64,000 nt of DNA, taken from assembly GCF_025245835.1 (NCBI RefSeq), contig NZ_JAOBWS010000002.1:1-64000 (forward strand), in the 5' to 3' direction. The position numbers and the translations under genes were made by a program. The notes under the pieces were generated by a model. That model made no database searches, was not told the origin of the DNA, and was given only the letters and a program-made list of their open reading frames with translations. The stretch comes from Rheinheimera sp. 4Y26. Lineage in GTDB: Bacteria > Pseudomonadota > Gammaproteobacteria > Enterobacterales > Alteromonadaceae. Positions 4,281 through 15,166 of the stretch are shown piece after piece (the stretch's first letter is position 1; each line of letters opens with the position of its first letter).

Positions 4281-5309
4281 TCAGGCCGGGCAAGCGGCAG
4301 TGGATTCGCGCACCAGCAGCTCCGGAATAAACACCGGTTGTTCGGCAGAAATACCCTGTTGCTGGCCCGGACGGCTTCGGCGGAACAAGAGTTCTGCCGC
4401 CTGCATAGCGATGGTGCTGTTGGGCTGATGCGCTGTGGTCAGTGGTGGCCAGGTTTGGCGCGAGAAAGGGCTGTTTTCAAATCCCACAATAGAGAGTTGC
4501 TGCGGAATTTCTACCTGCGATAAACGCGCACTAAATAAAGCACCGGCGGCAATTTCGTCGTTACAGGCAAAAATGGCGGTGGGTTTATGCACCAGCTCCA
4601 GTAAATATTTGGCACCTTTTACCCCGGATTCAAAGGAATAACTGCCCGGCACTATATATTTCGGGTTGGGGGTGATGCCCCTTTTGGTTAAAGCGGCTTT
4701 AAAACCGGCCAGACGTTCACCGCTGGAGCTGTGCTCTTCATCACCACATAAAAATGCAATGTCGGTATGGCCCAGTTCCAGCAAATGATTGGTAATTTTA
4801 AAAGCGGCGGTAAAGTCGTCCACCAGCACACAGTTGGTCAGCTTGGGCGATGGGGTGGAGCCGGAAATAATCCTCACAAAATCAACGCCAATCCGCTCCA
4901 GCGCTTCGGCAATTTCCGGCATTTCAGAAAAGGGTGGGGTTAACACTAAACCCGCCAGCCGGGCGTGCTGCACTAAATCTATCACTTCCTGCACTATCTG
5001 CGCCGACTTGGCGTTGGTGGGGTGAATTAGCAACTCGTAACCGTGTTTACGGCAGGCTTCCAACAAACCTCTTTGCATATCAATGACATAATAAGCGTTT
5101 GGGTTGTCGTAGATATAACCGATGCTATAAGAGCGGGTGCCGGCCAGATTGCGGGCAGCCGCATTGGGCTGATAGTTCAGCTCGCTGATAGCCGCTGACA
5201 CTTTCTCCTGGGTGGCCTTTTTGACCGAAGGCTCGTTATTCATCACCCTGGACACTGTTTTAATCGAAACGCCGGCCAGCCTGGCAACGTCATTAATAGT
5301 TACTTTCAT
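4281..5309 (-). CDS. nagR: LacI-family transcriptional regulator, probable NagR
   Basis: A 342-residue LacI-family repressor. The N-terminal helix-turn-helix (about 4-24, TINDVARLAGVSIKTVSRVM) and hinge region are followed by a periplasmic-binding-protein-like effector domain ending near residue 335. It is transcribed divergently from a large TonB receptor. Three copies of a LacI-type palindrome occur in the window (5701, 9732, 15149), all at amino-sugar genes, which makes this the likely repressor of the chitin/GlcNAc regulon. LacI-type NagR is established for Shewanella and relatives, where a GlcNAc catabolite acts as inducer. The family call is secure; the name rests on context. Confidence 0.82.
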   Translation of the reverse strand: MKVTINDVARLAGVSIKTVSRVMNNEPSVKKATQEKVSAAISELNYQPNAAARNLAGTRSYSIGYIYDNPNAYYVIDMQRGLLEACRKHGYELLIHPTNAKSAQIVQEVIDLVQHARLAGLVLTPPFSEMPEIAEALERIGVDFVRIISGSTPSPKLTNCVLVDDFTAAFKITNHLLELGHTDIAFLCGDEEHSSSGERLAGFKAALTKRGITPNPKYIVPGSYSFESGVKGAKYLLELVHKPTAIFACNDEIAAGALFSARLSQVEIPQQLSIVGFENSPFSRQTWPPLTTAHQPNSTIAMQAAELLFRRSRPGQQQGISAEQPVFIPELLVRESTAACPA

Positions 5310-5718: not shown

Positions 5719-5774
5719 GCAGGACAAAAAAATTCATCGCACAAGATCAAAAAAAACAGGAATGGGAGAAGCTC

Positions 5775-8471
5775 ATGTCGCACACTAAAATGAATAAATG
5801 TGCATTGGCAGTTAAGCTCGGTTTAGTGGTGGGAGCTGCGGCATTATCAATGCCAGCCCTGGCTCAGCAAGCCAACGCAAAACCAGCCGGTGCCAAAGAA
5901 CAACAAGTCGAAGTGATTGAAATTCGTGGTATCCGCGCTTCACAGCAAGCAAACTTAAATGCCAAACGTTTTAGTGACTCTATCGTTGATGTGGTAACGG
6001 CAGAAGATATTGGCAAATTCCCTGATAAAAACGTCGCTGAATCGCTGTCACGTATCACTGGTGTGGGTGTGAGCCGTGAATTTGGTGAAGGTGAAAAAAT
6101 TACTGTCCGCGGTGCCAGCTCTGCAACTAACCGTACTTTATTAAATGGTCAGACCGTTGCCACTGCTGACTGGTTTATTCTGGACAATCCGGGCCGCAGC
6201 TTTAACTACACCATGCTGCCATCAGCGCTGGTACGCGATCTGGAAGTTTACAAATCACCGGAAGCCCGTATTGATGAAGGTTCTATCGGTGGTACCGTGA
6301 TCCTGAAAACCCGCCGTCCGCTCGATATGGATGCCAACAGCCTGAACCTGTCAATTGAAGGTCAATACTCTGATTTATCAGACAAAACTGATCCGCAATT
6401 AGGTGCTATGTATTCCTGGAAAACCGACGACGAGCGTTATGGTGTGCTGGTTTCTGCGCTGAAACAGGACCGCAACCTGGTGCGTGAAGGTTTTGAAGTA
6501 TTGTCATGGCCGGTGGGCGCCGATGGTGTGTCTTACCCTGGTTTGATGGGCGTGCCACGTTTTGTGCAAAAACGTGAACGTGAAACCGGTTTTGTCTCTT
6601 TCCAGGCGCGGCCAACAGATGCGCTGGAAATGACACTGAATGTGCTGAAATCCAAAGTGGATGCCGACAACCACAACGCCAACTATCTGGTGTGGACCGG
6701 CAACGACGTGGTTGCTAATAAAGTGACTAACAAAGCTGTTGTCGACAATGCGCTGCTGGCTGGCAAAGTGGCGGCAGGCCAGATTGGTTACAACTTTATC
6801 AACCGGGTGGCATCCACTGAAACCCAATCTGTTGATCTGGACATCAACTATGATGCCGGCAACTTTAAAGTGCATGGTCAGCTTGGCCGCACCGACGCTG
6901 AAGGCGGCACTTTACGTGAAACCTCATGGGAATATATCAACACAGCTTCAGGCTACGATTTTGATTTAAGAGGTGGTAAGCCAACAGTCAATACTGCGGT
7001 CAGCGGCGCTGATGGCAGCAAGTTCAGCCCTGGCTGGATCTGGGGTGGTGAAAAACCAACCACAGATGAAGAAACCTATGCTCAGCTTGATTTTGAAATT
7101 CCGGTGGATGCCGGTGTGTTTAACAGCGTGAAAACCGGCGTGAAGTTGCGTCAGGCCGAGCGCACCCAGGACCGTATCGCCTACAGCTGGCATGGTCCTA
7201 ATACGTTAAAAGATCCGTCTAAAGCGCCGTCATGGCCTGTGTATCTGCAATACATTTTTGACCAGTGCTCTGATTTAACCAAATGTGGCCTGACTACAGG
7301 TACGGTGAATGTCGATGGTCTGGTGAATGGTTCCCTGGCCAATCAGGTACTGCATGATCGCAACAGAATGGAAGAAATTGCTTTTGTTGGCCTGAACGGT
7401 GTGCCAGCCGATTATGCCCGTTCACGGGTACTGGATGAAAACTGGGCAGTGGAAGAAGACATTACCGCACTGTATGTGCAGGGTGATTTTTCCGGTGAAG
7501 GATTCCGCGGCAACATCGGCGTTCGTTATGTCGACACAGCCCAGACTTCAGGTGGTTGGGAGCATAGCGGTACCGACTACTGGGGTTTCCACACTCTGGA
7601 TCGCGCCTGGTTAAAACCAACGCTGCTGAACTGGAAAGAAGTGGACAACGACTACAGCGAAGTGCTGCCAAGCATTAACGTGGCTTTTGATTTATCTGAA
7701 GACACTATTATGCGGGTAGGTGCTGCTCGGGTGATGGCTCGTCAGAACTGGAACGATGTTTCTTCATCCTCAAGCTACGGTTCACTGAATGTGTCTAACC
7801 CAACAGGTGTGGCCAACAACCCAATGTTAAAACCGCAGCTAGTGGATCAATTTGACCTGAGCTACGAGTGGTACTTCAACCCTTCATCTATTCTGGCTGC
7901 CACTTACTTCTTTAAAGATGTAAAGAGCTACCGTGGTTTCAGCACCTTTGTGGATGAGCGTTTCTGGGAGCAGGGCAATACCATGGTGGATGTAACTTTC
8001 ACCCGTCCTGACAATGGTCCTGGCGGCACCACCAGCGGTATGGAACTGAGTTATCAGCAAAGTTTTGGTCAGTTTGGTGTGATGGCCAACTACACCTACA
8101 CCGAAGCGGATCGGGATGAAACCAGAGATATCTTAAAACCGGGTTCAGGTCTGGTGGAAGGCACGTCCAAGCATATGGTGAACCTCAGCGGTTATTATGA
8201 AGATGACACTTACAGTGCCCGTCTGATGTATAACTTCCGCACCGATTGGTACAAAGGCCTGCACTGGAGTGGTTCTGAGATTTGGAACGACGATTACGGC
8301 CAGCTGGATGCCAGCTTTGGTTATAACCTGACTGAGTCTGTGACCTTAACGGCAGAAGCAGTGAACCTGACCAACGAAGAAGTGGTTGAGTTTAACACCG
8401 ACAAAAACCGTCTGTTCTCTTTGTATCAGAACGGCCGCCGTTATGTGTTAGGTGTGCGGATGGCATTCTGA
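5775..8471 (+). CDS. TonB-dependent receptor for chitooligosaccharides/GlcNAc
   Basis: Outer-membrane TonB-dependent transporter, 898 residues, of the large carbohydrate-type (Xanthomonas/Caulobacter) class. It has a signal peptide (cleavage after PALA near residue 30), a TonB-box-like VEVIEIRGIR (about 45-54), a plug with the class-typical DIGKFPDKNVAESLSRITGV, and ends RRYVLGVRMAF with a terminal Phe. The operator and promoter upstream place it under NagR, and the neighbouring GH20, NagK, NagA and NagP genes make chitin oligomers or GlcNAc the likely cargo. The class call is from sequence; the ligand is inferred from context. Confidence 0.87.
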   Translation: MSHTKMNKCALAVKLGLVVGAAALSMPALAQQANAKPAGAKEQQVEVIEIRGIRASQQANLNAKRFSDSIVDVVTAEDIGKFPDKNVAESLSRITGVGVSREFGEGEKITVRGASSATNRTLLNGQTVATADWFILDNPGRSFNYTMLPSALVRDLEVYKSPEARIDEGSIGGTVILKTRRPLDMDANSLNLSIEGQYSDLSDKTDPQLGAMYSWKTDDERYGVLVSALKQDRNLVREGFEVLSWPVGADGVSYPGLMGVPRFVQKRERETGFVSFQARPTDALEMTLNVLKSKVDADNHNANYLVWTGNDVVANKVTNKAVVDNALLAGKVAAGQIGYNFINRVASTETQSVDLDINYDAGNFKVHGQLGRTDAEGGTLRETSWEYINTASGYDFDLRGGKPTVNTAVSGADGSKFSPGWIWGGEKPTTDEETYAQLDFEIPVDAGVFNSVKTGVKLRQAERTQDRIAYSWHGPNTLKDPSKAPSWPVYLQYIFDQCSDLTKCGLTTGTVNVDGLVNGSLANQVLHDRNRMEEIAFVGLNGVPADYARSRVLDENWAVEEDITALYVQGDFSGEGFRGNIGVRYVDTAQTSGGWEHSGTDYWGFHTLDRAWLKPTLLNWKEVDNDYSEVLPSINVAFDLSEDTIMRVGAARVMARQNWNDVSSSSSYGSLNVSNPTGVANNPMLKPQLVDQFDLSYEWYFNPSSILAATYFFKDVKSYRGFSTFVDERFWEQGNTMVDVTFTRPDNGPGGTTSGMELSYQQSFGQFGVMANYTYTEADRDETRDILKPGSGLVEGTSKHMVNLSGYYEDDTYSARLMYNFRTDWYKGLHWSGSEIWNDDYGQLDASFGYNLTESVTLTAEAVNLTNEEVVEFNTDKNRLFSLYQNGRRYVLGVRMAF

Positions 8472-8611: not shown

Positions 8612-9640
8612 ATGCAGCAAATCGCCAGAATCAACACAAAAGCCCCGGGTTTTGACTTTGATGCGCTGATAGCACAAGGCCAGCCTGCAGTATTAACCGG
8701 CTGGGTTGAGCACTGGCCGGCGCTTCAGGCATCCAGGCAAGGGCCGGCGGCGCTGACACAATATCTGCATCCTTTAGACAACAACAACGAAATGGACACC
8801 CTGTTGCTGGCGGCTGACACCCAGGGCAAAGTGGGTTATGCCGGCGCTGACTTACAGCAGTTTAATTTTGAACGGCGCCGTTATCCGGTGTGGGCGGTGC
8901 TTAAACAACTGCTGCGACAGATGCAGCAACCCGATGCAGTACGTATTGCGTTACAAAGCGCCAGGCTCGACAGTTGTTTGCCGGATTTTAGCCGGCACAA
9001 TCCAATGCCGGGCCTGTCGCCCGATGTGGTAGGGCGGGTCTGGATCGGCAATCAAACCATAGTGCCGGCACATTTTGACCACAGTAACAACCTGGCTTGT
9101 GTGCTGTCAGGCCGCCGCACTTTTACGCTGTTTCCGCCTGAGCAGGCGGTAAATCTGTATATAGGGCCTTTGCAAAGTGCACCCACAGGGGCGCCGGTGA
9201 GCCTGGTGGATATACTATCGCCCGACTTTCAACGTTTTCCGCGTTATGCCAAAGCACTGGAAGCAGCGCAGCAAGCCACGCTGGAGCCTGGAGATGTGCT
9301 GTTTTTGCCGGCGCTGTGGTGGCATCAGGTGCAGGCCACTACTGCTTTTAATCTGCTGGTGAATTATTGGTGGGGTGGCTCTGTTGGCTCTGATGCCAAC
9401 GCCGTCTCCCCTTATAACGCCTTGTTACATGCTCTGGTTGCGCTGAACGGCTGCAGCAATACCGAGCGCAGCCAGTGGCAGGCATTGTTTAATTATTTTG
9501 TGTTTCATGAAGATGCCGGCAATTTTGCCCATATTCCAGCCAATACACCAGCCATTCAGCGCGAAGTGAACAGCAAGGATCAGCAGGCCATCTGCACCTG
9601 GCTATTACAGGAACTGACTAAGCAGGTTCCCGGCCATTAA
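8612..9640 (+). CDS. Cupin_8/JmjC-like (Pass1-type) 2-oxoglutarate oxygenase
   Basis: A 342-residue protein of the cupin-like JmjC-related fold. It shows the metal-binding H-x-D (AHFDHSNNLACVLSGRRTF, about residue 150) and the distal histidine in FLPALWWHQV (about 233-242), so the Fe(II)/2-oxoglutarate site looks intact. No signal peptide is seen, suggesting a cytoplasmic enzyme. Proteins of this type (often with tryptophan-halogenase-like genes) recur next to carbohydrate TonB receptors in proteobacteria, but the substrate is unknown. It follows the NagR-controlled receptor, with a strong terminator between them. A ribosome site AAAGGA precedes the ATG. Confidence 0.75.
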   Translation: MQQIARINTKAPGFDFDALIAQGQPAVLTGWVEHWPALQASRQGPAALTQYLHPLDNNNEMDTLLLAADTQGKVGYAGADLQQFNFERRRYPVWAVLKQLLRQMQQPDAVRIALQSARLDSCLPDFSRHNPMPGLSPDVVGRVWIGNQTIVPAHFDHSNNLACVLSGRRTFTLFPPEQAVNLYIGPLQSAPTGAPVSLVDILSPDFQRFPRYAKALEAAQQATLEPGDVLFLPALWWHQVQATTAFNLLVNYWWGGSVGSDANAVSPYNALLHALVALNGCSNTERSQWQALFNYFVFHEDAGNFAHIPANTPAIQREVNSKDQQAICTWLLQELTKQVPGH

Positions 9641-9705: not shown

Positions 9706-9734
9706 TTGCGTAAAAAAACTACAAAAAACATAAT
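9706..9734 (+). promoter_or_regulatory. Candidate sigma-70 promoter overlapping NagR operator 2
   Basis: A -35 TTGCGT (9706-9711) and a -10 CATAAT (9729-9734) are separated by 17 bases. The operator begins inside the -10 hexamer, a typical repressor placement. Transcription would start near 9741. Confidence 0.5.
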
Positions 9735-9749
9735 GACAACGTTGTCATT
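9732..9749. promoter_or_regulatory. NagR operator 2 (perfect palindrome)
   Basis: AATGACAACGTTGTCATT is a perfect 18-bp palindrome, the strongest of the three operators in the window. It is not positioned for any annotated neighbour: the nearest downstream conventional gene starts 446 bases away, beyond a terminator. Confidence 0.85.
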
Positions 9750-9790
9750 TATTGCTAGCATCAGTGCCGAGGTGGTTGTTGCAGGGTGCA

Positions 9791-9892
9791 ATGTTTTTTC
9801 TGACAGCGCATTTTGTTTACCCGCAGGAACCGGCGTGCTGGGGCTGGTTGCTGATCTCCCTGTTGCAGATGATTATTATTGGTAGTTGGTAA
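9791..9892 (+). CDS. Candidate 33-residue Trp-rich membrane peptide in the NagR regulon
   Basis: An ATG with an AGGG ribosome site five bases upstream opens a 33-codon frame ending TAA at 9890. The peptide starts MFFLTAHFVYP, has a short polar middle (QEPAC), then WGWLLISLLQMIIIGSW, enough for one membrane span; tryptophans sit at positions 17, 19 and 33. It lies between a perfect NagR operator/promoter and a strong terminator, and is the best coding candidate in that unit. I recognise no family. Alternatives are a noncoding RNA of about 240 nt, a remnant of a longer membrane protein (the frame is open upstream from 9737), or the overlapping frame from 9733. Confidence 0.4.
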   Translation: MFFLTAHFVYPQEPACWGWLLISLLQMIIIGSW

Positions 9893-9958
9893 TAATTATC
9901 CACCAGCGCACATGGATGTGACCTGTTATTTGCCAAATCCTTATCCAAGGGTCTTTAT

Positions 9959-9990
9959 CAGGATGCTGTTATCAGCGTCCTGTTTTTTTA
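9959..9990 (+). terminator. Strong terminator closing the NagR-controlled short unit
   Basis: Ten-base stem CAGGATGCTG / CAGCGTCCTG (one G-U pair) with a TTAT loop, followed by seven T, A and three T. With the promoter at 9706 it defines a transcript of about 245 nt. Confidence 0.88.
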
Positions 9991-10194: not shown

Positions 10195-11025
10195 ATGCAG
10201 TCTTTTTTTCTGATGATGTTGTTGTGTTGTTCCGTCACTGTGGCGGCAGCCACTGAACTGAGGCTGATCAGCAGTGAAAAAATGCCTTACAACTACACCA
10301 CAGAGCAGCAGTTTGTTGGTCTGACGGTGGATGTAGTGAAAGACTTGCTGGCACCCAAACAACCGGATATCGAAGTGATGCCCTGGCCGCGCGCTTTTGA
10401 AATTGCCAGAACCACACCCAATGTGCTGCTGTTTACCATGGGTAAAACCAAACAGCGGCTGGCGCAGGGGTTTCAATATATTGGTCCTGTTTCAACCCGG
10501 CAGCTGGCGTTTTATACCCTACAGGACGAATTCACCACTTTAACCAGTCTTGCTGAGATACGACAAAAAAAGCTGGTGATTGTTGGTTTACGAGGTGGCT
10601 GGTTTAGCGAGCAGTTAAAGCAGCAAGGTATTGAGATCCTGGAAGTGGGTGATTATCACCAGGGCGTGTTGATGCTATTGCGTGACAGAGCACATCTTTG
10701 GGTTTCTACCGATTTGGAAGCGCAGATGCACCTGAATCAAACGGGTGAACATGCCAAATTAAAAATAGCGCTGCGCCTGCAATGTGCCGAAAATTACCTG
10801 GCCTTGTCGCCAGGCTCAGATGCAAAGCTGTACCAGCAGCTGCAACAGGATTATCAACGCTGGAGTCAAAGCAAAAAACCAGCGGCTATTGCGAAAAAAT
10901 GGCAGCAGCAGCTGGGTGTCACACTTAAATTTAATCAAAAACGTGGTTTTAGCGACAGTGAATTGCAGACCAGCGATTGCCCGTTACAAACTGAACCTGG
11001 CGCATTCACACTAAGCGCAAAATGA
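10195..11025 (+). CDS. Periplasmic solute-binding protein (SBP_bac_3-like), orphan
   Basis: A 276-residue exported protein. A signal peptide (MQSFFLMMLLCCSVTVAAATE, cleavage near residue 19) is followed by a type-3 solute-binding fold recognisable from KMPYNYTTEQQFVGLTVDVVKDLL and MPWPRAFEIARTTPNVLLFTM. Family members bind amino acids or similar small solutes, but no permease or ATPase gene is adjacent, so a transport role is not supported here. Its stop overlaps the start of the next gene by four bases (ATGA), implying translational coupling with a sugar-type oxidoreductase. The ligand is unknown. Confidence 0.7.
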   Translation: MQSFFLMMLLCCSVTVAAATELRLISSEKMPYNYTTEQQFVGLTVDVVKDLLAPKQPDIEVMPWPRAFEIARTTPNVLLFTMGKTKQRLAQGFQYIGPVSTRQLAFYTLQDEFTTLTSLAEIRQKKLVIVGLRGGWFSEQLKQQGIEILEVGDYHQGVLMLLRDRAHLWVSTDLEAQMHLNQTGEHAKLKIALRLQCAENYLALSPGSDAKLYQQLQQDYQRWSQSKKPAAIAKKWQQQLGVTLKFNQKRGFSDSELQTSDCPLQTEPGAFTLSAK

Positions 11026-15148: not shown

Positions 15149-15166
15149 AATGACAACGCTGTCAAT
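15149..15166. promoter_or_regulatory. NagR operator 3 (hexosaminidase / nagK divergent region)
   Basis: AATGACAACGCTGTCAAT differs from operator 1 only at one outer base. It lies 93 bases before nagK and 216 bases before the GH20 gene, so one site could control both directions or mainly the nagK operon. Confidence 0.78.

Follow-up and report, generated by a model that had tools for sequence, protein, structure and literature searches.

The window, that is, the whole stretch of 64,000 nucleotides from Rheinheimera sp. 4Y26 that was analysed, contains a GlcNAc/chitin cluster encoding NagR (LacI family), a TonB receptor, a Cupin_8 protein, a solute-binding protein, a Gfo/Idh oxidoreductase and GH20, together with NagK (BadF family), NagB-II, NagA, NagP and NagX-like genes. 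Between the Cupin_8 gene (8612–9640) and the gene for a family-3 solute-binding protein (10195–11025) lies a unit without a conventional gene, in which a promoter overlapped by an operator is followed by an intrinsic terminator. A plasmid search with this interval gave no match. The features referred to below are as follows.

4281–5309, minus strand: NagR, a LacI-family repressor and the presumed controller of the unit; the assignment is supported by its position beside NagK, NagB-II, NagA, NagP and NagX
9732–9749, no strand assigned: NagR operator, a perfect 18-bp palindrome, AATGACAACGTTGTCATT; an equivalent site precedes every copy of the small RNA (sRNA) examined
9733–9761, plus strand: sigma-70-type promoter, ATGACA-17-TAGCAT with an extended -10, its -35 hexamer inside the operator (sequence scan, conservation)
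9768–9989, plus strand: predicted sRNA of about 220 nt, its 5' end inferred from the promoter (promoter, terminator, covariance model)
9791–9892, plus strand: 33-codon frame MFFLTAHFVYPQEPACWGWLLISLLQMIIIGSW of the preliminary description, not conserved in an alignment to 22 related copies
9855–9861, plus strand: UCUCCCU, a C-rich and anti-SD-like motif shared by most Rheinheimera copies (alignment)
9857–9989, plus strand: conserved sRNA core, matched by covariance model R1 with 118 bits in 4Y26
9868–9900, plus strand: central hairpin, 14 bp in 4Y26, with a near-invariant apical AUUGGUAGUUGGU (covariation)
9910–9919, plus strand: ACAUGGAUGU, ACANGGA in most copies and similar to the CsrA consensus, a lead only (motif comparison, csrA present)
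9926–9951, plus strand: UUAUUUGCCAAAUCCUUAUCCAAGGG, nearly invariant and including a small CCUU/AAGG hairpin, a likely pairing and Hfq region (alignment)
9959–9989, plus strand: intrinsic terminator, a 10-bp stem (9959–9982) followed by T7 (sequence scan; in the sister genus, pairing is maintained)

The preliminary description had placed an unannotated NagR-controlled transcription unit in this interval, with a perfect 18-bp palindrome overlapping a sigma-70 promoter and an intrinsic terminator downstream. Each of these elements was borne out (palindrome at 9732–9749, promoter at 9733–9761, 10 bp plus T7 at 9959–9989), and the unit is kept in two genera. The proposed transcript retains its own promoter and terminator, but its length had been put at 245 nt, whereas a start site near 9768, as inferred from the promoter, gives about 220 nt. 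Single consensus matches in the promoter and terminator scan occur at chance frequency, and the weight of these assignments rests on conservation.

Sites of the NagR type are far more frequent here than chance would provide: with up to three mismatches, three were found in the 64-kb window against 0.05 expected. Near matches to the palindrome lie upstream of the TonB receptor gene and between GH20 and nagK, and the best sites genome-wide are those at 9732–9749, at the TonB receptor (5701), at GH20/nagK (15149) and at a GH18 chitinase (G000:C11:175927). The single site between the divergent GH20 and nagK genes (15149–15166) could control both. In front of the sRNA, the operator overlaps the promoter in all 23 copies examined, across two different layouts. 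In the first, found in nine genomes including 4Y26, the -35 hexamer falls within the operator, and the last base of the -10 is 12 nt past the operator's downstream end; in the second, found in the remaining copies, the -10 immediately precedes the operator, which covers the start site. The operator overlaps the polymerase site in both layouts, and each predicts repression by NagR.

The content of the transcript was originally proposed to be a GlcNAc-induced, 33-residue small membrane peptide, possibly a modulator of a transporter. In 4Y26, the 33-codon open frame does contain a hydrophobic stretch and is preceded by a weak purine run. However, a conserved start codon and reading frame for a small membrane protein were not found among the 22 related copies: an ATG stands at the aligned start in none of them, and 21 carry indels within the frame whose lengths are not multiples of three. 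The one remaining copy has a 36-nt deletion that takes out the start, and in the nearest relative an in-frame stop interrupts the frame midway. As the start is lost in 22/22 and the frame broken in 21/22, the peptide is not the conserved product. Unrelated frames of 28–63 codons are present in many relatives' copies; thus, a 33-codon frame is expected by chance. A DNA search of 60 relatives detected the unit in many Rheinheimera genomes; the best conservation was seen in the 3' part ending in the terminator rather than in the proposed frame, most of the conserved part lies 3' of that frame, and the conserved nucleotides fall in different frames between clades. As a conserved function the peptide is therefore refuted, and we consider it most improbable.

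The alternative offered in the same description, a non-coding regulatory RNA, receives strong support from covariation. The 3' core of about 130 nt comprises a hairpin that covaries and has an invariant loop, an unpaired stretch that is likewise invariant, and the terminator. In the alignment, GGUAGUU forms the hairpin loop, and the motif UCUCCCU, the segment UUUAUUUGCCAAUCCUUAUCCAAGGG and the terminator are also seen. In a free MAFFT alignment of 17 copies, RNAalifold predicted 28 pairs, 14 of them with two-sided changes. The larger alignment of 23 copies showed two-sided changes in 19 of 27 pairs, amounting to 132 such cells compared with 44 after shuffling, a count that leans towards structure because this alignment was fitted to the model; the 17-copy count is without that bias, as it was made on the free alignment. 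In the 23 copies, 96.9% of cells were paired, versus 75% when shuffled and 30–53% when slid. Within the central hairpin, two-sided changes occur in 10 of the 13 consensus pairs. For the terminator, the structure alone is conserved: its stem has been replaced wholesale in the sister genus, with pairing kept. The unit thus combines a covarying structure and no conserved frame with what appear to be a promoter and an intrinsic terminator of its own.

Covariance model R1, built from 16 copies, recovered a 17th Rheinheimera copy that had been left out of the building (E 4e-11), and it detected one copy in each of six sister-genus genomes (6/6, E 7e-13 to 3e-17). Of the 22 Rheinheimera genomes, 17 have a single copy of the sRNA. 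Among 297 genomes of the family it was confined to Rheinheimera and the sister genus, and 395 genomes of the order yielded none outside Rheinheimera, with the proviso that diverged copies may have escaped both searches through the sampling and the stricter filters. The distribution is narrow, which counts against a wider role. The only exact core match beyond this group, in Labilibacter, was rejected as a chance hit, the surrounding core and the terminator being missing. NagR is encoded in all 22 Rheinheimera genomes, including the five from which the sRNA is absent. In one of these, G018, whose NagR is 99% identical to that of 4Y26, the nag cluster has been lost from the TonB receptor gene to most of nagX, with nagR kept, and this loss takes the sRNA along (G018:C2:1-7500). 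The other four (G015, G016, G017 and G021) keep the cluster and lack the sRNA; in G015 and G016, the two whose sequence was read, a SapC-like gene occupies the site. The sRNA is thus dispensable, and it is an accessory of the nag cluster. In L068, from a genome without the sRNA, CTTCCTTATCC...CTAAGGCTCTTTGAG occurs near the expected place (5875–5910) and may be a relic of the sRNA 3' end.

A terminator placed before a gene is an arrangement typical of attenuators, and the unit might accordingly be read as a 5' leader: transcription would start at the NagR promoter, and a riboswitch or attenuator with a regulated terminator would control the oxidoreductase gene behind it. A Gfo/Idh gene does lie downstream in most Rheinheimera genomes, on the same strand and no more than about 300 nt away, and no further NagR site was observed ahead of this gene. 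However, the downstream genes vary within the genus: the next gene is usually Gfo/Idh, with the solute-binding protein gene in 4Y26 and G012 and a GDSL-type hydrolase gene in G007, and the spacer (about 60–300 nt) is not conserved. In the sister genus, the sRNA and its operator face the 3' end of GH20 in a convergent arrangement, and the sRNA strand carries no gene directly behind. This convergence, together with the varying downstream genes, rules out a gene-specific leader as a general explanation, and the unit has no fixed leader or trailer relation to any one gene. The RNA itself also speaks against attenuation, as the terminator stem is replaced by unrelated sequence and single changes in AUCCUUAUCC, the potential partner of the terminator 5' arm, are uncompensated. 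Control of the oxidoreductase gene in this manner is thus quite improbable, and read-through into the next gene is possible in some Rheinheimera species. Slightly more credit, though still little, is due to a regulatory RNA that acts by binding a protein, for example CsrA via a GGA element. A csrA gene is present, and in most copies the invariant stretch is preceded by ACANGGA, which we take to resemble the CsrA-binding consensus and which in one sister-genus copy reads exactly ACAAGGAUGU. Each transcript has about as many GGA motifs as expected from shuffled sequences, whereas CsrB-like sponges carry many; a CsrA sponge of the CsrB/RsmY type was rejected on this lack of enrichment.

We therefore favour a NagR-repressed, GlcNAc-induced, trans-acting non-coding sRNA of about 220 nt, to which we assign a probability of roughly 0.8. 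The RNA ends in a terminator and contains an invariant stretch that is unpaired and rich in U, and both hfq and csrA are present in the genome; the simplest reading is a trans-acting base-pairing sRNA. The U-rich stretch and U tail are Hfq-compatible features. In the proposed mechanism, NagR on its operator would block the sRNA promoter. GlcNAc or chitin sugar would relieve this repression, so that the sRNA would be made alongside the TonB receptor, GH20, the nagK operon and the chitinase, its transcript ending at its own terminator. The RNA would then pair with mRNAs in trans, most likely with Hfq. The pairing region would be the unpaired invariant stretch (UUUAUUUGCCAAUCC), the loop GGUAGUU, which is also invariant, or the C-rich motif UCUCCC. 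Target contacts would be expected to leave just this pattern, in which the stems vary while the loop and the unpaired segments do not. The predicted outcome is that other genes would be damped or rebalanced during chitin-sugar use.

Several known systems invite comparison. Sugar-responsive local regulators that drive trans-acting, terminator-ended sRNAs are familiar from the SgrS type, which the Rheinheimera RNA resembles in this respect. SgrS is driven by an activator and also encodes the peptide SgrT; the Rheinheimera RNA, in contrast, has a repressor and no conserved peptide. In E. coli and Salmonella, ChiX (MicM/RybC/SroB) is an sRNA in a chitosugar uptake circuit that includes the GlcNAc repressor NagC; it acts as a repressor in the absence of chitosugar, and a decoy mRNA serves to remove it (PMC4098024). 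The likeness lies in an sRNA within a chitosugar circuit that includes the GlcNAc repressor. The Rheinheimera RNA differs in that it is itself placed under NagR, would be made with the sugar and has no Rfam similarity. In Vibrio cholerae, the sRNA TfoR is induced by GlcNAc/chitin (PMC4098024). TfoR acts on competence in Vibrio; the Rheinheimera RNA has no Rfam match and another genomic setting.

In Shewanella and other gammaproteobacteria, the LacI-family NagR is reported to control nagK, nagB-II, nagA, nagP, nagX and TonB receptors (PMC2996990; PMC5343134), and the Rheinheimera cluster fits a regulon of this type. The portions of the published reconstructions considered here give protein genes only, and an RNA member would be new relative to them (PMC2996990; PMC5343134). 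A NagR-controlled sRNA was not found described in the open-licence papers searched. Rfam gave no credible family match at the locus or in relatives, including to ChiX if it is held there; in the surrounding 6 kb there were only two sub-threshold eukaryotic chance matches, and in relatives none. The RNA family is new, although of a known kind. If the favoured reading holds, the NagR regulon of chitin-degrading aquatic gammaproteobacteria would include a regulatory RNA besides protein genes, and this sRNA, induced by GlcNAc and under the direct control of the pathway repressor, would be a ChiX counterpart whose expression logic is reversed. The sRNA occurs in culturable aquatic species, and the covariance model of the new family is usable.

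Searches for targets, by RNAduplex and by accessibility-weighted helices in 13 genomes, yielded no candidate that convincingly passed control. RNAduplex was applied to nag-cluster genes, the chitinase and glmS; of 19 tested, the largest z (-3.3) was that of the chitinase 5' UTR, and nothing was found for glmS. The accessibility-weighted comparison in 13 genomes placed the TonB receptor best among genes seen in at least five genomes, but the signal is weak, with a mean z of only -0.8. At its SD, a UCUCCC:GGGAGA pairing is available in 8/12 genomes, extending to 9 bp in one clade; the receptor leader is equally conserved in genomes without the sRNA. A search of the 4Y26 genome for the complement of the 13-mer seed, with one mismatch allowed, returned no mRNA site. 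In six relatives, the seed complement gave 48 sites beyond the sRNA itself, compared with 19 for the reversed pattern. Among the recurrent sites, codons 5–9 of rpoE contain a 12-nt perfect complement to AUUUGCCAAUCC in three of the six genomes, spanning both genera, a recurrence that protein-level conservation could explain. A complement of 11–12 nt to the invariant stretch likewise recurs in the malic-enzyme 5' UTR (3/6 genomes). The TonB receptor SD, rpoE and the malic-enzyme 5' UTR are thus candidate targets, to be taken as leads rather than results. That the sRNA serves as an outgoing arm of the GlcNAc repressor, by which the supply of chitin sugar would exert post-transcriptional control over distant genes such as rpoE, for the envelope-stress sigma factor, and that of the NADP-malic enzyme, as well as over the sugar-importing TonB receptor, is a speculative extension that we regard as unlikely.

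A further observation concerns the leader of the NagR-controlled TonB receptor gene. In the window it lies at 5719–5780, and the segment CAGGAAUGGGAGA..AGCUUAUG, together with the first codons, is strongly conserved, while the receptor encoded behind it differs from genome to genome (35–90% identity), as if receptor genes had been swapped behind a fixed leader.
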